A stretch of DNA of 64,000 bases, taken from the NCBI RefSeq assembly GCF_004570875.1, contig NZ_SPQK01000001.1, positions 186,001 through 250,000 of the forward strand. The letters run 5' to 3'. Origin of the DNA: Blastococcus sp. CT_GayMR16 (GTDB lineage Bacteria; Actinomycetota; Actinomycetes; Mycobacteriales; Geodermatophilaceae). Of the stretch, positions 1 through 11,100 are shown piece after piece (position 1 is the stretch's first letter; each line of letters opens with the position of its first letter). The notes below the pieces were generated by a model that had not been told where the DNA came from, searched no databases, and saw only the letters and a program-made list of their open reading frames with translations. The position numbers and the translations under genes are program-made.

Positions 1-468
1 GTCGGGATCGACACGCTGCTCGTGACTGAGAACAAGCTGAGCGCTGAGACCGCACCTCACCATCCCGCGCAGCTCGTACTGTGGGGCTCAGGTAACGAGG
101 CCAGTTCGGTGCTGGCGGCTCTGCCCTGGCTGCACAAGGTCCGCGTTCGCTACTGGGGTGACGTCGACACGCACGGACTGGCAATCCTGGGCCGTGTCCG
201 GCAGGTCGCGCCGCACGTCGAGCCGGTCCTGATGGACCTGGCGACGTTGCACGCCCATCAGGAGCACTGGGTCGTCGAGACGACACCGACGCGCAGCGAG
301 CAGCTGCCCGGACTGACCGCTGCTGAAGCCGAGCTGTACCGGCTGCTGCGAGACAACGTGTTCGGCGACCGGGTCCGTCTAGAGCAGGAATTCATCCGCT
401 TCGACCGCGTCGTCACAGCGCTTGCGACTGGACCCCCGCTGTCCCGGCCGGTCCCCGATCGCCCGTGA
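1..468 (+). CDS. jetD: Wadjet JetD-like nuclease subunit, C-terminal part (DUF2220)
   Basis: The frame is open from the first base, so the 5' part of the gene is outside the window. What remains (155 residues) resembles the C-terminal toprim-like half of DUF2220 proteins. The glutamate motif VTENKL and the acidic motif YWGDVDTHG are the expected metal-binding positions of a topoisomerase VI A-like toprim fold. The tail LEQEFIRFDRVVTAL is also typical of the family. JetD is known as the DNA-cleaving subunit of the Wadjet (JetABCD) system, which acts against plasmids, with JetABC forming an SMC-like complex. jetABC would lie to the left of the window and cannot be checked. A strong hairpin follows the stop codon, so this is probably the last gene of its operon. 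The family call is firm; membership of a complete Wadjet operon is inference. Confidence 0.82.
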   Translation, partial: VGIDTLLVTENKLSAETAPHHPAQLVLWGSGNEASSVLAALPWLHKVRVRYWGDVDTHGLAILGRVRQVAPHVEPVLMDLATLHAHQEHWVVETTPTRSEQLPGLTAAEAELYRLLRDNVFGDRVRLEQEFIRFDRVVTALATGPPLSRPVPDRP

Positions 469-844: not shown

Positions 845-1139
845 TTACCGAAGACGATGCACCCTGACGGCTTTGGCCATGCCGTCGACCTGCATCCTGC
901 CTCCGCTAATTATTGCCAAAGGGCGATGCTTGTACTGATAGCGGTAGTAGTACTCCGCCTGCTGCCATACCGACCCATTCTCGAGCGTAACGACGGTGCT
1001 GCCATCCCAGCCCGTCCATGCGCCAGCTATCCGCGATCTCAACGCCTACTCCACCTCCAGTCCTTTTAGCGCCGTTCGGCGCATCTTGCAGCACATCTCT
1101 GCCGGTTTCGCGTGCCCTCCGAGGTTTTCTTCCAGTCAA
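845..1139 (-). pseudogene. Frameshifted remnant of a small conserved protein
   Basis: The minus-strand frame 1042-845 encodes RIAGAWTGWDGSTVVTLENG followed by GSVWQQAEYYYRYQYKHRP, then a short region ending at a TAA. This resembles a small module I have seen at the C-terminus of many bacterial hypothetical proteins (W-G-x-G-T-hydrophobic ... NG..W.Q..Y.Y.Y.Y..P). I cannot name it. In this frame a TAG stands just upstream at 1046-1048 and only a TTG start is available. The upstream sequence continues sensibly in another frame (1139 to about 1036, ending GGVGVEI), so a single frameshift near 1036-1045 would join the two. It lies 56 bases downstream of the DUF6527 gene on the same strand. Local base composition is lower in GC than the surroundings. 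It could instead be an intact short gene with a TTG start. Confidence 0.5.
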
Positions 1140-1195
1140 ACCACGTCACTGCCGTGCTCGGGGCAAGGCCCTCGTAGACCTCGTGACCGCCGGCG

Positions 1196-1630
1196 TCATG
1201 AGCGCCCCAGGAACCCGCGCAGCCAGCGGCTCAGCTTCGTCAGCACGCCGGCACGGGGAACGTCGCTGTGGGTCTGTGCGCGCTGCGCGGTGTCGAGCTT
1301 GTGTGTCGCTAGTGCAGCACCTCGCGTCATGGGTCGGCGCCAGACGACGCAGTTTTGCCGGATCAGGTAGTGCGACCCGCACTCGAACTGTCCGTTGCCC
1401 ACCGACGGAGACAGGGTCACCCGCCCGTCGAAGGTCAGGATCCAGTCTGCAGGGCCCAACGGCGTCACGACCCTGACGCCACAGCCGCACGCGCATCGGT
1501 GGGAGGCGGTCGCGTACTCCATCGAGACGTACAGGATTCCGTCGTCCAGGTCTGTCGGCACATATTCGACGAAGACGGGTTCGAGTTCTTCACTCCTCAC
1601 CGGTCGTATCCGCCTCCGTCGGGCCGTCAT
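1196..1630 (-). CDS. DUF6527 family protein of a ubiquitin-like operon
   Basis: The product is 144 residues. It has the DUF6527 pattern: a Cys-rich motif HRCACGCGVRVV (C46, C48, C50), a SPSVG motif near residue 74, and CGSHYLIRQNCVVW (C84, H87, C94). The cysteines and histidine suggest a metal-binding fold. The family is repeatedly found beside multiubiquitin and ThiF proteins. I recall it being proposed as a peptidase or deconjugase of bacterial ubiquitin-like pathways, but I cannot verify this here. The start at 1630 overlaps the end of the ThiF gene by 41 bases, and an upstream frame extension has no homology-like content. Third gene of the Ubl operon. Confidence 0.75.
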   Translation of the reverse strand: MTARRRRIRPVRSEELEPVFVEYVPTDLDDGILYVSMEYATASHRCACGCGVRVVTPLGPADWILTFDGRVTLSPSVGNGQFECGSHYLIRQNCVVWRRPMTRGAALATHKLDTAQRAQTHSDVPRAGVLTKLSRWLRGFLGRS

Positions 1631-2822
1631 CCTCGGCTTCGTCGTTGCCGTACTGGTTGATGATTTCGTTGGTGTCGATTCGATACAGAGAGTGCAGTTC
1701 ACTTTGGCTGTCGCTGTAGAACCCGTAACGCTTCTTGAACGCGATGACGGCCAGGATGGCGGTGAGCGCGTTGAGCTCGGCCACTTGGATGTTCGATTCG
1801 TACTCGTCGCCATCGCCGAGCTCGTAGGAGATCAGCTGGTGGTCCCGGATGTGGCCCTGCTGCTCGGGCAGGCTGGTAGTGACGCGGAGAAGCCCGGCCA
1901 GGCCACTGGCGTCGTGCCGCACACCCAGCCCGGTGTCGATGAACGGCACACCCGCGTTGGTCAGCGCGTCGATGATGACCTTCTTGTCCTCGTTCGCGTC
2001 CATGGCGAGGAACACGAAGCTCATCTCGAGCAGCTCGTCGACGTTGTCCGCTGTCACGTACTGCGGGTGCGGCACGACGCCCCACCGCAGTCGCCCGTAC
2101 CGGGCTGCGTGGTAGTCCACCTTGAGCGGGGCGGCGTTGAGTTCCTCGATGCTGGCCGCGCCCGGTGACCGGTAGGAGTTGTGAGTGGAGAAGACGTCGC
2201 CGTCGTGGATGTGCAGCTCACGGATCGGCGTCTTGGCGAGCAGATCGAGCAGGTACGCGCCGGTGCCTCCAAGACCGACGATCGCGACCTTGGGCAGCGA
2301 GATCTTCTCCGCCAGGGCGGTGATGCCGGCGCGGCTGGAGTTCGTGTCCAGGTACTTGAACACGCTGTCGGTCTCGTCCGACACGACCGGCTTGAACGTG
2401 GTGGGGATCGCCGTGGGGTCGATGGCCTGGGCGTGGCCGACGATCAGCCCGGCGTATGCGACCACCTTGTCGTAGTAGTTGGTGTAGCCGCGGCTGTCCG
2501 CCTTCATCGAGGAACTGCACGCCGCCACCAGGCCGTCGGCGAGCTGCATCGGTCCGCGCTGGTGGATCAGAGCCTGGAGCTCCATCCCCTCCTTGCTGTG
2601 CGGGATCTCGGTGAACCACATCACGTGGGTCTGTGGCGGAGTAGTGGTGTCGCCCTGGATGTCCAGGGGGCAGACGAGACTGCCGCGGACGACGGTGCCC
2701 GCGGCGGTCACGAACGGGATGTCGTCGATGGCCAGGTGGCCGGCGCAGATGCGGACGGCGTACCCCTCGTTGACGAGCCGCGACAGATCCGGGCTGTCAC
2801 GAACGAGTCGTGGCAGTGACAT
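1590..2822 (-). CDS. DUF6791-ThiF E1-like adenylyltransferase
   Basis: The product is 410 residues. Residues 1-145 match the DUF6791 domain as I recall it (SPDLSRLVNEGY, AGHLAIDDIPFV, THVMWF, GYTNYYDKVVAYAGLI, AQAIDP). Residues 165-380 are a ThiF/E1-type Rossmann adenylation domain with the nucleotide loop GLGGTG at 183-188, the acidic motif HDGDVFSTHN and MDANEDKK near 274-281. E1-like enzymes activate the C-terminus of a ubiquitin-like protein as an acyl-adenylate. The only cysteines are C26, C51 and C102, all in the DUF6791 half, so the E1 half has no catalytic cysteine. No separate E2 gene is visible, and DUF6791 may supply the transfer function (inference). The start overlaps the Ubl gene by 26 bases, indicating translational coupling. 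Confidence 0.85.
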   Translation of the reverse strand: MSLPRLVRDSPDLSRLVNEGYAVRICAGHLAIDDIPFVTAAGTVVRGSLVCPLDIQGDTTTPPQTHVMWFTEIPHSKEGMELQALIHQRGPMQLADGLVAACSSSMKADSRGYTNYYDKVVAYAGLIVGHAQAIDPTAIPTTFKPVVSDETDSVFKYLDTNSSRAGITALAEKISLPKVAIVGLGGTGAYLLDLLAKTPIRELHIHDGDVFSTHNSYRSPGAASIEELNAAPLKVDYHAARYGRLRWGVVPHPQYVTADNVDELLEMSFVFLAMDANEDKKVIIDALTNAGVPFIDTGLGVRHDASGLAGLLRVTTSLPEQQGHIRDHQLISYELGDGDEYESNIQVAELNALTAILAVIAFKKRYGFYSDSQSELHSLYRIDTNEIINQYGNDEAEDDGPTEADTTGEE

Positions 2823-3075
2823 CGAAGCTCGTCCCCTTCTTCTTCACGGCAACCGAGGTTCCGGGCACCAGGGTGCCGCTACCCCCGTGCCCGCCCTTGG
2901 CCTTGCGATAGGCCACCGAGTAGATGACGTTGGGGTCCACGTTGGGGAATCCCAGGTCGACCACCTGCTCGTACGTGACCGTCTCGGCGTCGACCTCGAA
3001 GCGCGACCCGTTGATCGCGATCTCGTAGTCCTTGTCCTTGGTCGGGTTCTTGGCCGACAGCTCGACTTCGGTCAT
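2797..3075 (-). CDS. Multiubiquitin-type ubiquitin-like protein (single domain)
   Basis: A 92-residue protein with one beta-grasp-like repeat of the multiubiquitin family. It shows YEIAINGSRFEV, VTYEQVVDLGF, VIYSVAYRKA, a glycine-rich turn GGHGGSGTL and the C-terminal strand SFDVTATTRS. It ends in Thr-Arg-Ser with no terminal di-glycine. Because it sits directly before a ThiF-type E1-like gene, it is the probable conjugated modifier. The ATG at 3075 is preceded by a GGGAG element; an in-frame start 42 bases upstream would add 14 residues without family character. It is the first gene of the minus-strand operon, and a 19-bp palindrome lies 65-83 bases upstream. Confidence 0.82.
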   Translation of the reverse strand: MTEVELSAKNPTKDKDYEIAINGSRFEVDAETVTYEQVVDLGFPNVDPNVIYSVAYRKAKGGHGGSGTLVPGTSVAVKKKGTSFDVTATTRS

Positions 3076-3158: not shown

Positions 3159-3251
3159 ACATGATGACGACCGGCGTGTCGGGGGCGAAGCGGCGTCGGC
3201 GGCCGGACTCCCCGATACGTTGTGCCGCGTCACCCGAAGAGTGAAGGGCCG

Positions 3252-3560
3252 ATGGAGATCGAGTACCTCGATCGCGGAGCGCGTGATGCCGCGACGCCGC
3301 CAGGTGTGCGGCCGCCGGACTGGAGCCATGCCGAGGTCAGCCGCCTGCGCCTCGTCGTTCAATGCATCCGAGCCGGGCGGATTCCCAGCGACGTGCTGTC
3401 GCTGCGCTCCCTGCGCCTGCGCACCGATCCCGACGATCCCGGACGGGTCAGGACCGAACTGAGCTACGACCGCACCCTCACCCTCGCCTTCAAGGCAGAC
3501 AGCAGTCCCATTACAGCGATGCTGGATATCGCGCCCACCAGAACGGACTCAGGACGATGA
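3252..3560 (+). CDS. HigB-like toxin (RelE superfamily), divergent
   Basis: A 102-residue protein with MEIEYLDRGARDA at the N-terminus, an Arg-rich helix HAEVSRLRLVVQCIRAGR, the motif LRSLRLR and a C-terminal strand TLTLAFKADSS. This layout fits HigB/RelE-type ribosome-dependent mRNA interferases, although sequence similarity is weak. The main support is position: its stop overlaps the start of a HigA-ImmA antitoxin gene by four bases (ATGA). The ATG at 3252 follows an AAGGG element closely. Confidence 0.6.
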   Translation: MEIEYLDRGARDAATPPGVRPPDWSHAEVSRLRLVVQCIRAGRIPSDVLSLRSLRLRTDPDDPGRVRTELSYDRTLTLAFKADSSPITAMLDIAPTRTDSGR

Positions 3561-4633
3561 GCGATCGCGTGCCCGACCCGGTGCCACTCGGCCAATTCCT
3601 CGCTGAGGAGATCGAGGCCCACGGGTGGACCCAGGCGGAATTCGCTGCCGTGCTCGGACGACCGGTGCAATTCGTCTCCGAGATTGTGAACGGCAAGAAG
3701 GAAGTGACTCGCGAGTCAGCGGCACAGATCGGTGCAGCCCTGGGTCAGACGCCGGAGTTCTGGCTCAGTTTTCAGGACGAATACTTGCTGAGCGAGCAGG
3801 CGAAGAACACCAGGACGCAGCAGGAGCTGTCAGAAGTGCGACGCCGCGCGCGCCTTAACCGATTGGTGCCAGTCGCGACGCTGCGCAAACGCGGTGTATT
3901 AGCTGGAGAAGATCTAGACGAACTTGAAGAAGAGGTGGCCGAACTCTTAGAGCTGGACAGCATCAACGACGACCCCGCCTTTCACATCGCCGCCCGACGG
4001 AGTAACCACGACGAGCCCGTCTCGCCTGTGCAAGTCGCCTGGGTGGCATGTGTTAGGCGCGCGGCTCGCAAACGCACAGACGTGAAGCCGTTCTCGAAAT
4101 TCAAGCTCGAGAGACTGGCAGCGCAACTGCCCACACTGCTCAGTAACCCCGTCGGCTTCCGTGGCTTGCCCGAAAGCTTCGCGGAAACCGGCGTCGTCCT
4201 CGTTTACGTCGAGGCACTACCAGGGGCAAAGATTGACGGCTGCGCGTTCATGCTCGATAAGACCCCGACCATTGCGCTCTCAGGGCGAGGTAAGCGCTTG
4301 GACAAAGTGTTGTGGACGCTATTGCACGAGGTGGCCCACGTCATTCTCGGCCATGTCTCGTCCGAGGTGTTAGTGGAGACGCTAGACGACCATGACGAGA
4401 CCGACGACACGGAGAACGAGGCCGACAGGCGAGCAGGCGGATGGCTCTTGCCTACACCGCTCCCGACACCGCCGGCGCGTATCGGCGCGGGGTGGGTTGA
4501 AAGCGTGGCGAGCGAGCGCCGCCTAGCGCCAATCGTGATCGTCGGCCAACTTCAGCAGAATCAGGTGCTGGACTGGCGCACGACGCTCGCGCGCAACGCC
4601 CCGACCGTTACCGGAGTCCTTGAGACTTGGTGA
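3557..4633 (+). CDS. HigA-type XRE antitoxin fused to ImmA/IrrE metallopeptidase
   Basis: The product is 358 residues. Residues 10-75 form a HigA-like XRE helix-turn-helix (FLAEEIEAHGWTQAEFAAVL, FVSEIVNGKKEVT, AAQIGAALGQTPEFWLSFQ). Residues 200-330 form an ImmA/IrrE zinc peptidase domain with HEVAH at 257-261 and a downstream ENEADRRAGGWLLP motif giving the third ligand. An acidic and arginine-rich linker joins them (88-135). The protein should bind the toxin and repress the operon; the peptidase half may trigger release or degradation of a repressor, as ImmA does for ImmR (family knowledge, inferred here). Codon use is clearly less GC-rich than in neighbouring genes, which suggests recent transfer. 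Confidence 0.83.
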   Translation: MSDRVPDPVPLGQFLAEEIEAHGWTQAEFAAVLGRPVQFVSEIVNGKKEVTRESAAQIGAALGQTPEFWLSFQDEYLLSEQAKNTRTQQELSEVRRRARLNRLVPVATLRKRGVLAGEDLDELEEEVAELLELDSINDDPAFHIAARRSNHDEPVSPVQVAWVACVRRAARKRTDVKPFSKFKLERLAAQLPTLLSNPVGFRGLPESFAETGVVLVYVEALPGAKIDGCAFMLDKTPTIALSGRGKRLDKVLWTLLHEVAHVILGHVSSEVLVETLDDHDETDDTENEADRRAGGWLLPTPLPTPPARIGAGWVESVASERRLAPIVIVGQLQQNQVLDWRTTLARNAPTVTGVLETW

Positions 4634-5033: not shown

Positions 5034-7646
5034 TCAGAAGCCGTATAGGTGCTGGCGGGCGTTGAAGGCGTCGGGGCCACCTTCGAGGATGTTCTCGGCA
5101 TGCGCCCGGATCTTCCTGTCGTCGAGCGAGCCGATGCCATCCGCAGCCGGCTTGCCATGCTGCCCATCGCCTTCGAGCGTCACGATCAACTCTGCGTCGC
5201 CGAGAACGGGGACGTTGGCGTTGTGCGTGCTGACGATGACCTGGCGACGGCCCTTGAGCTTCCGGAGGTTCGCCACGATGCCATTGAAGACGAAGCGGTT
5301 ATCGAGGTCATCCTCAGGCTGGTCGATCACCAGCGGTGCGTCGGATCCACTTAACAGCAAGAGCAAGAGCGCCGTCGCCTTTTGACCCTTCGACAGCTGA
5401 CCCATGCTCTTGAGTTCCTTCGAGCCGGTACCGAAACCGACATCGAGCTTGACGTCGACCGCAAGCCGGACGCTGAGCTCCTCCATCTCCCTAAGCAGCG
5501 GCTCACCGGCAGCCAGCAAGTTGGCAGCCTGGGCCCCCCTGATGCCGTAGGCGGCGAGGCCATCTGTCCCCTTCCGCGCGGCTTCTACGAAGGCGCGCGT
5601 CGAGAATGTCTCGGCGTCAATCGCGGCCGTGATGGTGTTCTTGGCGCCTGTAAGGCTGTCGATCACCAGTTGCTTGATGTGCGTCCGGTCAGGGTCGGGA
5701 ACGGGCTGCACCACAACGACCCCGTTAGTCGCGCTGTTCGCGGCACGGATGGCTTCGTGGAGCTTCTCCGTCTGTTCTTTCTCACGGTCACGGAGCTTGC
5801 CGAGAAGGTCGCCACGAACCTTCTTGAGGCTGGCGGTGTCCTGGTCCAGCTTCTTGCGGCGCGGCAGCTTCGCCTTCAGCGCCTCCAGCGCTCGCTTCGT
5901 GTCGACGTACCTGTCGGGCTGTAGTCCCTCCTCATGCAGGGCGCGCAGCACGTTGTTGTACTCCTCGCGCTGCTCTCTGACTGCGGTCGTCCAGTCGGCC
6001 CGAGCGGAATCCACGGTCTGCTCAGCAGCATCGAGCGCCGCGCGGACCTGGGCGGCAATGTCGGCGAGCTTCGTGGCCAGTTCTGACGTGGCGGCGGTCG
6101 CCCGCTTGAGCAGTTCGTTCTGCGGCGAGTCTTCGACGCTCTCGTAGGCGGCAGTTAGGTTGGTGCTGAGCTGCGGGTCGGTCAGGTCGGCAAGCGCGGT
6201 CCGCGTCTCGCCGATGCGAGCGGCCGCTTCTTTGAGAACGGCCTGATCTAGCTCCAGCCGCTGCTGCGCGGCCAACTTCCCCGGTACGTCGGTCGTGTCG
6301 TACTGCTTGATCTGTTCTTCTAGACGTGGGATATCGGCAAGCTCGCCTTCGAGCGTCTCCTTCGCCGCCTCCTGCTTTTGCAGATGCGCCCGGTTCTCGG
6401 CGAGCTGGGCCAACGTGTCGTGGTGTTCCCGATCAGGACCGTCGGAGCCGGTGAATCGCTGCAGCATTATGGCAACCCGCGCGGGGTCGTTCGCGAGCTC
6501 TGCAAGCTCGTGCTGGCCGAAGATTTCAACGCGCGGGACTATGTCCTCGGGCTTCAGGTTGGTGGGCGAGCCGCTGGCGTCCCGAACGATCGGGACATCG
6601 TTGACGAGGCGCTCGATCGTGTAGGTGTGCGGCGTGGGCTTGGCCGTCTCGACGGTGACCTTCACGATCGTGCCCGTCTTGAGGACATCCTTAACGATCG
6701 CGCGGTGGTCGGCGAGCGCGCCCGCTCCGATCGGCTCGATGCCGAGCGCGTATCGCAGGCTTTCGATAGCCGTCGACTTGCCGGTGCCCGGTCCCCCGAT
6801 GAACGCCGTGAGCTCCTCCGACAGCGGGATCGCGACCTCGTCGAGGAATCCGCCCGTCCATGACAGTTCTCGAATCAGTGCACGCGGGGTGCCTGTCGGA
6901 TCAGCCACGGACACACGTGTCGTCGGCGTACGCACAGCCAGCATGAGGCTCTCGAGGCGCTCGGTACTGACCTTGAACCACGACGACGCGCCTGGCTTCG
7001 CCAGGTCGTCCGGCGCCATGACGTCATCGGCGTAGATCACGGCGAGCGGGTGCTGCCGCTCGAACGGCTTGCGGTTTCTCAGCACGGAAGCCTGGTCCTT
7101 GGCGTCGGCCACGCTCGGCGTGATGCCAAGCGCGTTGACCAACGGGTGTTGGATCATCCGCTCAAGGGGCTGGCCGCTCTCACGAGCCAAGAGGCCGCTC
7201 GGTGAGACATTGACGTGCGCCGGGATCACGAGGGCGCCGCGCTCGGTCACCTTGTCTACGACGTCGCCGTAGCCGCAAGTGCCGGTTCCGCTGCTGCCAG
7301 GTGTTCCGCCACAGATGCCGATGGCCGCGTTGATCTCGGCGAACGGGGTGCCCACTTCGAAGATAACGAGCAGGTGCACGCCCTCCGATGTGTTCGCTTC
7401 GAAGCCGGGCAGCGCGACGACGCCCCGTGCTTCGGCGGCGGCGATCAGGCCTGCAGCGGTGTCGACGGACCAGTGGTCGGTGATGGCAATCATGCGGATG
7501 CCCATCGCCTCGCACCGGTCGAGCAGCGCCTGGTTGTAGTCATCCTCGGAGGCGTACTTCTTGGACGGCTCGTTCGGCCCCTTGTACGCGTACGGGTTGA
7601 CCTGCAGCGCGGCACGGATCCAGTGCGCGCCTACGTAGTCAGCCAT
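5034..7646 (-). CDS. PHP domain - SMC-like ATPase (TrlF-type)
   Basis: The product is 870 residues from the ATG at 7646, which has GGGAG six bases upstream. An ATG at 7664 and a GTG at 7673 are alternative starts. Residues 10-250 form a PHP-like domain: TDH at 56-58, a GFEANTSEGVHLLV segment (E83, H91) and IPAHVN (H144). The usual first His-x-His motif is replaced by QVN at 15-17. An ABC/SMC-type ATPase follows, with Walker A GGPGTGKST at 284-292, a long coiled coil (about 400-700) and near the end a Walker B region LVIDQPEDDLDNRF followed by VIVSTHNANVPV. This architecture matches TrlF-family AAA-like ATPases. The gene stands alone, next to defence genes, so a nucleic-acid-directed defence role is plausible but unproven. 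Confidence 0.8.
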   Translation of the reverse strand: MADYVGAHWIRAALQVNPYAYKGPNEPSKKYASEDDYNQALLDRCEAMGIRMIAITDHWSVDTAAGLIAAAEARGVVALPGFEANTSEGVHLLVIFEVGTPFAEINAAIGICGGTPGSSGTGTCGYGDVVDKVTERGALVIPAHVNVSPSGLLARESGQPLERMIQHPLVNALGITPSVADAKDQASVLRNRKPFERQHPLAVIYADDVMAPDDLAKPGASSWFKVSTERLESLMLAVRTPTTRVSVADPTGTPRALIRELSWTGGFLDEVAIPLSEELTAFIGGPGTGKSTAIESLRYALGIEPIGAGALADHRAIVKDVLKTGTIVKVTVETAKPTPHTYTIERLVNDVPIVRDASGSPTNLKPEDIVPRVEIFGQHELAELANDPARVAIMLQRFTGSDGPDREHHDTLAQLAENRAHLQKQEAAKETLEGELADIPRLEEQIKQYDTTDVPGKLAAQQRLELDQAVLKEAAARIGETRTALADLTDPQLSTNLTAAYESVEDSPQNELLKRATAATSELATKLADIAAQVRAALDAAEQTVDSARADWTTAVREQREEYNNVLRALHEEGLQPDRYVDTKRALEALKAKLPRRKKLDQDTASLKKVRGDLLGKLRDREKEQTEKLHEAIRAANSATNGVVVVQPVPDPDRTHIKQLVIDSLTGAKNTITAAIDAETFSTRAFVEAARKGTDGLAAYGIRGAQAANLLAAGEPLLREMEELSVRLAVDVKLDVGFGTGSKELKSMGQLSKGQKATALLLLLLSGSDAPLVIDQPEDDLDNRFVFNGIVANLRKLKGRRQVIVSTHNANVPVLGDAELIVTLEGDGQHGKPAADGIGSLDDRKIRAHAENILEGGPDAFNARQHLYGF

Positions 7647-8180
7647 TGGGTGCTCCCGCTTCATGGGAGCCACCTCGAACGTCCGGGCTCCAACAGACAG
7701 TCACCGTAGGCGGGCGCGCCGACAGTTCCTGATCGAACGACACCAACAGTCGTCTCACGCACCCGGCCTCGGATTCTGGCGATCGCCACCGCTTCACGTA
7801 GGTGTCGGGGTCGGCTGGCTGCGCGGTGCGAGTCACTCGGGACCGAAGGCAGCAAAGTCTCTGATTGCCTGCGGAGGAGCCTTCCGTACGAGAAACCCCA
7901 ATCGGGAACGCCGCAGGTCAGATCTAGTGCGCCGGAGTCGGTCTCCCGTAAGAACCGCCCGAAAGATTGCCCGGTGAAGGGGGACTATGCGGGACACGTG
8001 CTCTGGTACCGCGGGGTTGGGACAGTTCAGCTGGCGCTGGCGCTGCCGAACGGCTCTGGCCGTCCCTCGCGCGCAGGAACTTGATCCGCCATCCGCCCCG
8101 CCGTACGGCTACTCGAAGTTGTGCAGGTGTTCGCCGGTCCATCCGTAGCGGTCCGCACCTCCGACCACCTACGTCGTTGG
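7647..8180. other. Intergenic region without a recognised gene
   Basis: A 534-base stretch upstream of the PHP-ATPase gene and downstream of the LysM/BTAD gene. Open frames here overlap each other on both strands and none looks protein-like. It must contain the PHP-ATPase promoter, but I cannot point to it. Confidence 0.5.
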
Positions 8181-11100
8181 TCAGCTGGCCCTGTTGATCC
8201 ACTGTCGGCGGAAGAGGATCTCGGCGGTTCTGGGTGGCAGGTCTTCCTCCACCTCGGCGTCGTGGTTGGCCAGAATGCGGGCGATGTAGGCGTCGGCCTC
8301 GGCCCGGTTGTCCTGGGCGTCGCAGGCGGCGACCAGGTCGAGCAGTGGGACGTCCTCGTAGCTGCCGGCTTTCAGCGCCACGTGAGCGGCGGCCTCGGCA
8401 AGCTCGGGCTCGCCGGCGGCGAGGTGGTGCGTCGCGACGATGTGCGCGACGTCGACGATCATGGCGGCGTACTCGTGGTCCAGACGGGAGCTCTCCTCGA
8501 CCAGCCAGCTGTAGCCGCCGGGCGCACCCTGCCGAGACGGGGGCAGGTCGAACGGTCGCCCGGTGACCAGGTCGAGGGCGGCCTGCAGGTCGGCCATCCC
8601 ATCGACACCGCGGGCCAGCCCGCGGACTCGCAGTCGGCGGAACAGCTCTGCGTCGATGAGGACGTCGTCGATGCGGTACCGGCCGACCCCGCCGGCGGTG
8701 ACCCCGGACGGTAGGTGGTCCGAGCCGGTCGCCGGGTTGGTGCCCAGCCAGGCGCGCACGATCGAGATCGACTGCCTCACCTTTGTCTTGCCGACGACAT
8801 CGGGCTCGTTGGGCCAGATCGCGGTGGCGTAGCGCTCGCTGGTCACGCCACCTGGCCGGGTGGCCAGGTAGGCGACGATCTCGGTGTAGAACTGCCGCCG
8901 CGGGTTGCGCTCGGGCAGCGTGCCTTGCGCCCGCACTTCGACTGGGCCCAGCAGGGTCAACTTCGGCCGCGGGCAGGACGGGTCGGCCCAGTCGGCGAGG
9001 TCGGCGTCTAGGGCCGGGTCGGCGACCTCGACCTGGTCGCGAATGTCTTCGTCGGTGGCCGGAGCAAGTGCCTGCAGGTCCTGCTCGGTGGTCGCAGCCC
9101 GGTCCAGGTAGGTCAGCGCGGACAGCGGTAGCACCGAGTTGCTGAGCTTAGCTGCGGCGCATCTCTGGTGGGTCACCGGCACGTCGTCCGCCTCGGCCGG
9201 CGCTGGTGGCTGCCGCCGGCCAGCGCGGGACGGGTCGACGCGGAGGCCCCCGCAGGCGTCGGCGTGCTCGTCCCAGGGCTCGTCGCCGCGAGAGGGTGGG
9301 ATCGGGCGGTCGTCGGTGACGGTAGCCAGCGCGAGCACCCGGGCCAGCTGCGCGGCCTCCCCGGCCGGGATCTGCTGCGCGATCAGCTCGACTCCCAGGA
9401 CTGGGATGTTGAGCGTGCCGGCCTCGTCGACAGTCAGCTGCCAGGAGGCGGCGTCCGCGTGGTCCGGGTCGTCGATGAGCACCAGCGCGGCCGCGCCGCG
9501 TCCGCGCTGCTGCTTCATGGCGGTCATCAGCCGTACCAGCCCGGCGCTGTCCTTGGCGACATCCGGGGCAATGAGCAGCACGTGCGGCGCCCACGCGTCG
9601 CCGGCCACGTCGCGCAACCGGCCGGACAGCACGTCGACGTCGGCGATATGCATGGCCTCGGTGACCGATTCGAACTGGCCGTCGAGCGCCGCGATCGCCT
9701 TCTCGACGTCGTCGGTGTACTTCAGCCGGTCGGGGTTGATCTGGGCCAACTCCTTGCCGAAGCCGACCACGGTCACCTGCAGCATCTCCGACCACGTGTT
9801 GTGCGCCAGCTCGGCAGCCAGGAACCGGGCCAGGTTCAGGCAGCGTTCGGCGTCCCCGGACAGGGACAGGGTCGCAACCCGTTCCAGGTCGAGCAGCCAG
9901 TGCTCGCCCTCGGCCGTGTAGCCCACCGACGCGAGCATGGGGAACGGTGCGAAGAAGTAGGCCCGCTGCTGCTCGTCATAGGCCAGTCGGTCGCCGCGTC
10001 GAATCGACCAGCGGGTGCCGGCCGCGTCCACCGTCCACGGCTCCGGGGCCTCCGTGGCCGGCTCGGTGAGTACCAAGGTCAGGACGTCGTCGGTCATGCA
10101 GGCCGCCACCACGTCGGGCAGGCGAGCAGCGTCGACGCTCGCCAGGGCCTGCACCAGGGCGCGCAGCGCCTGGTCCAGCCAGGTGACGTCGGCACCGCCG
10201 ACGCTGCCAGCCTCCTGCAGTGCTCGTTCGACGTGCAGCAGCTCTGGAGGTGTGCTGCCGATCGAGCGGCCAGGACGTCGCTGCCGGAACTGCCTGCGGC
10301 GGTAACGCAGCAGCGCGGTCAGCGAGACCCCGGCTAGCAGCAGCCCACCGCCGGCGGCGAAGGCGATCATCGGCAGCTCCGATGTGCTACCCGTCGAGGT
10401 CTCGTCAGGCCTCGCGGCCGACGGCTCGACGCTGGTCGGTGCAGCCGTGGGAGACGAGGTCGGGGCGTTGGGGGCCGGGCCGGGAGCGGCTGGAGGCGGC
10501 GCATGGGTGCCTGGCGTGGTCGGGTCTAGTGGAGGGACGGTGCTCGGGGATGGCGGGGTCGGCTCGGTCGTGGGCGGTGCCGGCTCGCCTGCAGGGGGCG
10601 CCGGTGCGCTGGGCGCGGGCGTCGCGGGACTGGCCGGGTCCGGGATGCTCAGCGTCCAGCCCGGTCGGATCAGCGACGGGTCGGTGAAAGTGGCGCCTCC
10701 GGGTTGCTTGCGTCCCCGGTTAAGCTCCCAGGCTTGGTGCCAGTTGTGCCCATTGCCGGTGATCTCCTCTGTGAGGTCCCACAGGGTGTCACCGGGTTCC
10801 ACCGTGACGTCCTCGACGGTCGTCGCGGCGTTGGGGGCTGAGCCCATCGGCGGCAGGCCGACCGCGTCGGGCGGCAGGACCAGCACTGTGCCCGCGAAGA
10901 TCTCGTTGTCCGGACCGACCGTGGTCGGGTTGAGCCTGGCAATCTCTGGATACCGCAGCGGGTCCCCGAGATGCCGCTCGGCCAGTGCCCACAGGGTGTC
11001 CCGGCGCTGCACCTGGTAAGTCGTGGTCGTGGCCGGAGGCGCCTGCTCGTCCGGCATCGAGTGCGCGACCGCTGTCTGCGCTGCGACCAGCGCGCTGGCG

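Follow-up and report, generated by a model that had tools for sequence, protein, structure and literature searches.

A 64-kb stretch of Blastococcus sp. CT_GayMR16 (contig NZ_SPQK01000001.1, positions 186,001-250,000; hereafter the window) carries a compact operon of three genes on its minus strand. They encode a ubiquitin-like protein (Ubl), an E1-like protein that consists of a DUF6791 domain and a ThiF adenylation domain, and a DUF6527 protein. On balance, we consider it probable that this type-6e/Bub-like operon conjugates the Ubl without a thioester and that DUF6791 replaces E2. The ThiF domain would adenylate the carboxylate of the Ubl's own C-terminal Ser, as the conservation of its motifs and of the Ubl C-terminus suggests, and the activated Ubl would be handed on without a conserved cysteine thioester. 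The best candidates for the transfer step, judged from conservation, would be Y341 of the E1 and H66, S105 and the near-invariant K107 of DUF6791. DUF6791 would perform the E2 role of other Bub operons, giving a one-piece E2-like/E1 enzyme, and DUF6527 is probably a metal-binding partner common to both operon types that may act as target adaptor or tag remover. A divergent helix-turn-helix (HTH)-peptidase gene next to the operon probably controls its expression. The earlier note on this DNA had named the same three genes, all of which are present, and omitted their strand. Its interpretation holds in direction, as no conserved thioester cysteine was found, and fails in detail; the system is not a new one.

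Gene content was compared by profile scanning of 26 loci, namely the window, L010-L012 and 22 annotated plasmid loci (L013-L034; taken from 60 listed, 115 found). Neither Prok-E2_E nor Bub-type JAB was found in any of the 26 (E ≤ 0.01, open reading frames (ORFs) of at least 50 amino acids), and both were at 0/24 among the loci bearing DUF6791. Thus, the statement of the earlier note that no separate E2 or JAB peptidase is visible extends from the 64-kb window to 25 related loci. DUF6527 was found in all 26, and the Ubl and DUF6791 in 24 each; the latter two were not found in the decayed loci L033 and L034. Eight E2-type loci (L040-L043, L087-L090) had E2_E in eight, JAB in eight, DUF6527 in seven and DUF6791 in none. 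Our Ubl profile matched 0/8 of them, and Pfam Multi_ubiq matched both of those scanned with it, L040 and L043. The mutual exclusivity of DUF6791 and E2_E suggests that DUF6791 may be an E2 substitute. It counts against this comparison that we chose the loci and that each profile was largely built from its own positives (E2_E from all eight E2-type loci plus L083-L086, JAB from seven of the eight, and Ubl, DUF6791 and DUF6527 largely from the 26 scanned loci), so that only the zeros are informative. In the genome of the window, there is one DUF6791, one Multi_ubiq and one above-cut-off DUF6527; no Prok-E2_E was found there at E ≤ 1e-3, and the sole Prok-JAB sits on another contig.

The window E1 contains exactly three cysteines, C26, C51 and C102, all within DUF6791 as the earlier note had it. 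The lack of cysteines in its adenylation half is not shared across the family: this half has one to three in 17 of the 24 aligned E1s. Each of the 24 has one to six cysteines in total; the commonest cysteine column is filled in 13 rows, and a cysteine is retained at C26 in three, at C51 in seven and at C102 in four. Because the 24 E1s share no conserved cysteine column, a conserved E1 thioester is unlikely, and chemistry other than that of a classical E1 thioester, as had been proposed, is favoured. The functional importance that had been given to the DUF6791 cysteines is not borne out, and family-wide catalysis by C26, C51 and C102 was rejected on account of their low conservation. Other residues are kept. 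GxGGxG of ThiF (183-188), D207, R218, K234 and D275 are invariant in all 24 E1s, and Y341, which profile alignment puts on Y370 of BubCD, is kept in 23. In DUF6791, H66, S105, K119 and Y123 are invariant in 26/26 alignment rows, and K107 is present in 24/24 rows of one alignment and nearly invariant in that of 26 rows. Foldseek searches with the E1 model gave Citrobacter BubCD as best matches, for the ThiF part.

The window Ubl ends in ..TTRS. The earlier note had read this Thr-Arg-Ser end, and its terminal Ser is conserved in relatives: the last residue is the only fully invariant column among 22 aligned Ubls, and all 28 Ubls inspected where their genes overlap the E1 gene end in Ser. Since the Ubl gene ends inside the E1 gene, we computed how often the overlapping E1 codons predict a terminal Ser, using E1 residues 7-8 and third-base usage with the stop kept. 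For 24 of the 28 loci (L011, near-identical to L012, was omitted, as were L024, L025 and L032, which have a 41-nt overlap), Ser was expected in 8.0 and observed in 24. The explanation of the Ser as a by-product of the E1 frame was rejected on these numbers; the Ubl itself seems to be under selection for a terminal Ser. The product of the test, 10^-14.9, overstates the strength because the sequences are related. Nothing follows the terminal Ser, so the Ubl would need no proteolytic maturation. In the E2-type locus L040, the Ubl runs on into E2, and the solved BubA pieces stop at Gly229 and BubB starts from 230. This boundary lies inside the L040 protein, which thus would need cutting, whereas the window Ubl, with its Ser at the stop codon instead of an internal Gly, would not. 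Separate Ubl genes in other E2-type loci end in ..GNH (L042) and ..NFG (L043). Relatives of the window Ubl hold one to three Ubl domains, and the family profile matches the solved protein 9cd2 (E 3e-22).

The pivotal question is whether DUF6791 is a disguised E2. Its elements are predicted in an order (two helices, four strands, two further strands and a long helix) that is compatible with the ubiquitin-conjugating (UBC) core, and, if forced, a profile alignment with twelve Prok-E2_E sequences is colinear across 121 columns. Several observations weigh against our reading. Alignment scores of the two profiles are not significant (16-17, E about 0.055; 16.4 and E 0.056 for the colinear alignment), one of 60 column shuffles did better, and the unrelated pair of DUF6791 and DUF6527 scored higher (21.8 over 14 columns). 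The Ser-containing motifs of DUF6791 and Prok-E2_E align close, but out of register, and searches of Pfam and PDB with DUF6791 alone gave no E2 match. The E1 model is modest (predicted local distance difference test (pLDDT) 71.9, predicted template modelling score (pTM) 0.54, built from nine rows). A second Ubl-like ORF in L036 (5519-5746, minus strand), which lies on the opposite strand and outside the overlap, ends in ..NNA and not in ..NRS; it could be a decoy, a relic or an alternative modifier. Furthermore, DUF6791 occupies the position of JAB in BubCD, at the N-terminus of the E1, and not that of BubB.

These points bear on another explanation, in which DUF6791 is a regulatory or substrate-binding replacement of JAB and not an E2, and the E1 gives the Ubl-adenylate straight to targets. 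E2-less archaeal SAMP (small archaeal modifier protein) systems are thought to pass the adenylate directly to targets. The lack of significant E2 similarity and the N-terminal slot speak for this explanation, and so does the 2006 paper, whose authors (PMC1779556) put a domain X in the place of JAB and termed it a JAB replacement. It would require, however, that E2 function was entirely lost, as E2_E and JAB are both absent from the loci. Moreover, the invariant polar residues H66, S105 and K119 suggest catalysis or tight binding, and the order of elements fits a UBC core. We regard it as possible, though rather unlikely.

We think it improbable that the operon conjugates no protein at all and that the E1 adenylates the Ubl for building a small molecule or a modified peptide, as MccB or PaaA does, or for carrying sulfur. 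Structures similar to the ThiF part do include PaaA and MccB, but BubCD structures outrank them by Foldseek E-value, and in sister operons members of the window's Pfam families of Ubl and DUF6527 accompany an E2 and JAB.

DUF6527 is the third component. In the window protein, its signature is C36-x3-C40-x33-C74-x2-H77, and C36, C38, C40, S66, C74, S76 and H77 are invariant in 22/22 operon DUF6527s. A wider alignment of 35 rows comprised the window, L010 and 33 viral-contig sequences (L035, L036, L037 and L049 also carry an E1). It covers 30 of 39 viral loci; L037 and L035, from the same contigs, stand in for L045 and L046, and seven further viral loci were left out as apparent duplicates. C36, C38 and C40 are kept in all 35 rows and H77 in 32; S66 is Cys in two and Met in one. 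Fourteen rows have Tyr in place of C74, next to a new His, and Ala in place of S76. The E2-type L043 DUF6527 has Asp at the middle cysteine. The residue pattern suggests a metal site. The change of S76 to Ala in 14 of the 35 rows disfavours S76 as a universal catalyst, and S66 and H77 are a possible catalytic pair. The least probable explanation retains a thioester, carried either by an E1 cysteine that is not conserved or by one in DUF6527: every aligned E1 has a cysteine and C36, C38, C40 and C74 are invariant in the operon DUF6527s, but no E1 column exceeds 13 of 24 rows, the C-x3-C...C-x2-H pattern is of a metal type, and the replacement of C74 by Tyr with a new His fits a ligand over a nucleophile.

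The core of the DUF6527 model is confident (mean pLDDT > 90 for residues 1-90), with eight strands within these residues and helices beyond residue 92. No relative of the model was found in the PDB. A viral protein in BFVD shares its fold (0.7 A over 89 residues, 55% identity). In 36 of 39 viral-contig loci (IMG/VR, L044-L082 range), neither an E1 nor a Ubl was seen around DUF6527; the neighbourhoods span at most 4 kb on each side, and less where the contig is shorter, and near-duplicates occur among the loci. Clear phage neighbours were seen in L048 (DUF6527 at 4001-4279; endolysin, nuclease) and L053 (DUF6527 at 3989-4267; RusA resolvase, terminase small subunit), and a PHROG was assigned to four of the ten neighbour proteins tested from five viral-contig loci. 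Viral DUF6527 is possibly a phage counter-measure against Bub-like tagging, and these genes are a concrete lead to such possible counter-measures. In a bolder combination, the E2-like/E1 fusion would conjugate without a cysteine or a separate E2 and attach a modifier whose mature Ser end is set by the stop codon, and lone viral DUF6527s would counteract or exploit such systems, perhaps by removing the tag, which would make DUF6527 a widespread regulator of Ubl tagging in bacteria. As a whole, this combination seems to us quite unlikely. In L021 (Methylomonas sp. DH-1, 7106-9014), DUF6527 is split around an IS256-family transposase, and the Ubl and E1 stay open.

The features of the operon and its immediate neighbours are listed below.

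Features of the operon and adjacent genes in the window
Feature	Position	Strand	Details
orf66	845-1042	minus	65-66 aa; downstream of DUF6527; kept in L010, L011, L012
DUF6527 protein	1196-1600	minus	134 aa; PF20137 E 5.7e-21
DUF6791-ThiF E1-like protein	1590-2822	minus	410 aa; PF20590 + PF00899 + PRK06153
ThiF adenylation core, residues 171-300	1923-2312	minus	PF00899 E 1.3e-11
DUF6791 domain, residues 11-160	2343-2792	minus	PF20590 E 7.8e-47
Ubl/E1 gene overlap	2797-2822	minus	26 nt
Ubl (multiubiquitin-domain protein)	2797-3075	minus	92 aa, one beta-grasp domain; PF14452 Multi_ubiq E 1.6e-17
RelE/HigB-like small protein	3222-3560	plus	divergent; L013 homologue annotated RelE/ParE toxin
HTH + ImmA/IrrE-type (M78) peptidase	3557-4633	plus	divergent; PF01381 + PF06114

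The match of the E1 to NCBIfam PRK06153.1-4 (E 5.6e-133) exceeds the family cut-off. The Ubl/E1 overlap has the length of the window's in 25 of 28 loci and is 41 nt long in the remaining three, which points to translational coupling of the two genes. The overlap scan gave 37 rows for the 28 loci, and nine other-frame rows were dropped (L014, L015, L016, L022, L024, L027, L028, L029 and L032). The start of DUF6527 is most likely the GTG at 1600, which overlaps the E1 by 11 nt and matches the annotation in L014 and L019; an ATG at 1630 is a possible alternative. The region 845-1195 was rejected as a portion of DUF6527, whose stop lies at 1196, and holds the separate ORF orf66. Pfam, NCBIfam and PADLOC gave no match for orf66 at the thresholds used, and it is a possible accessory gene. 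Rhizobium leguminosarum has a homologue of orf66 (CP090551, 725951-726145), and a Prok-E2_E match (722630-722995) lies some 3 kb away in that record.

The distribution of the operon is patchy and mobile. E1s 94-95% identical to that of the window were found in three contigs, from Modestobacter caceresii and Blastococcus sp. TF02-8 (Geodermatophilaceae, Actinomycetota). DUF6791 occurs in four of 112 genomes of the window's family, in three of 12 genera, and is absent from the 15 further genomes listed for the same genus; among 396 genomes sampled from the phylum, three have it. An E1 relative was found in 115 of 72,556 plasmid records and in none of 50,697 phage records. The close loci in two other genomes and the 115 plasmid relatives indicate that the operon is not a chance occurrence. 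On the Mesorhizobium plasmid NZ_CP033363.1, a DUF6791-type E1 match lies near 13.9 kb, and matches of BubCD and E2_E type lie near 262-263 kb.

PADLOC PD-Lambda-2_B matches the HTH-M78 gene (E 4e-29), and the divergent pair (3222-4633) resembles PD-Lambda-2-type modules; Pfam gave no match for the RelE-like ORF at E ≤ 0.1. Both genes are kept beside the operon in L010-L013, and HTH-M78 homologues are present in L017 and L026. As the pair travels with the operon, it may be a regulator rather than an independent toxin-antitoxin system. By annotation, an HTH/ImmA-type gene or pair is present at seven of the 20 plasmid loci in which Ubl and DUF6791 both occur (L013, L014, L017, L023, L025, L026 and L027; L013 and L026 were counted with homology support), and an adjacent divergent WYL gene at two (L015, L019). 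At the left edge of the window, 1-468 (plus strand) encodes the C-terminal part of Wadjet JetD (PF09983, E 1.6e-43), which suggests that the operon lies within a defence island. On the other side, 5034-7673 (minus strand) shows PHP and SMC/AAA ATPase similarity, matches the PADLOC Ppl model (E 3.6e-34) and is probably another defence gene. According to PMC12687455, phage defence is the apparent main function of such systems.

If DUF6791 is an E2 replacement, the operon would rank with the smallest Ubl conjugation systems known to us, with one modifier, one enzyme and one accessory protein. It would then be a test bed for cysteine-free Ubl transfer and for how the set of E1, E2 and JAB was assembled or reduced in evolution.

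Among bacterial systems with Ubl or E1-E2 conjugation machinery, CBASS (cyclic oligonucleotide-based antiphage signalling system) E1-E2 (Cap2) and Bil (BilABCD) are comparable to the operon. CBASS E1-E2 and Bil use catalytic cysteines. PADLOC models of CBASS E1-E2 cover only 41-95 residues of the window ThiF part (best E 5.5e-07). Bub operons and the window have in common a multiubiquitin Ubl, a Bub-like ThiF E1 with the Tyr (Y341/Y370) and a DUF6527 gene. HTH+ImmA- or WYL-type neighbours, by annotation, also occur at window-type loci as reported for Bub operons. Bub operons have BubB (Prok-E2_E) and an E1 with a fused JAB, whereas the window has DUF6791 alone in place of both. By entry titles, structures of Citrobacter BubA, BubB and BubCD are available (PDB 9ea4, 9ea5, 9ea8, 9eae and 9eav). 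Bub enzymes reportedly lack thioester cysteines, and a beta-barrel serine protease has reportedly been described in Bub operons; neither statement is used as evidence here. The multi-ubiquitin domain protein of ZDHYS365 (9cd2) belongs to the Ubl family of the window and has a similar C-terminus, ..TDKS, but is 222 aa long with three matching stretches, whereas the window Ubl is one domain. Its sequence suggests that it may belong to a DUF6791-type operon, in which case this subtype has already been handled in a structural laboratory.

In the literature searched, which did not reach the mechanistic Bub papers, DUF6527 and DUF6791 are unmentioned, and no description was found of a gene set lacking E2, of selection on the terminal Ser, of the Tyr correspondence or of viral DUF6527. 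The system is not an unrecognised one: its type was already predicted in 2006, and structures of related Bub enzymes have been solved. In that prediction (PMC1779556), type 6e operons encode a polyUbl, an inactive E2/RWD-like domain, a JAB-E1 and a metal-binding protein, and some of their E1s have the distinct domain X instead of JAB; the operons are listed for several proteobacteria and Frankia. The type 6e list in this text thus includes an inactive E2/RWD-like domain, whereas no Prok-E2_E was found in the 26 window-type loci. The signature given there for protein Y, C-x3-C-x35-38-H-x2-C, is near, but not identical, to C-x3-C-x33-C-x2-H of DUF6527. We infer that domain X is DUF6791 and that Y is DUF6527. 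Type 6e operons, as described in the same text, and the window have in common a Ubl beside an E1, a non-JAB domain replacing JAB, and a mobile, patchy occurrence. In summary, the 2006 prediction, the related Bub group and 9cd2 place the operon with a known kind of system.

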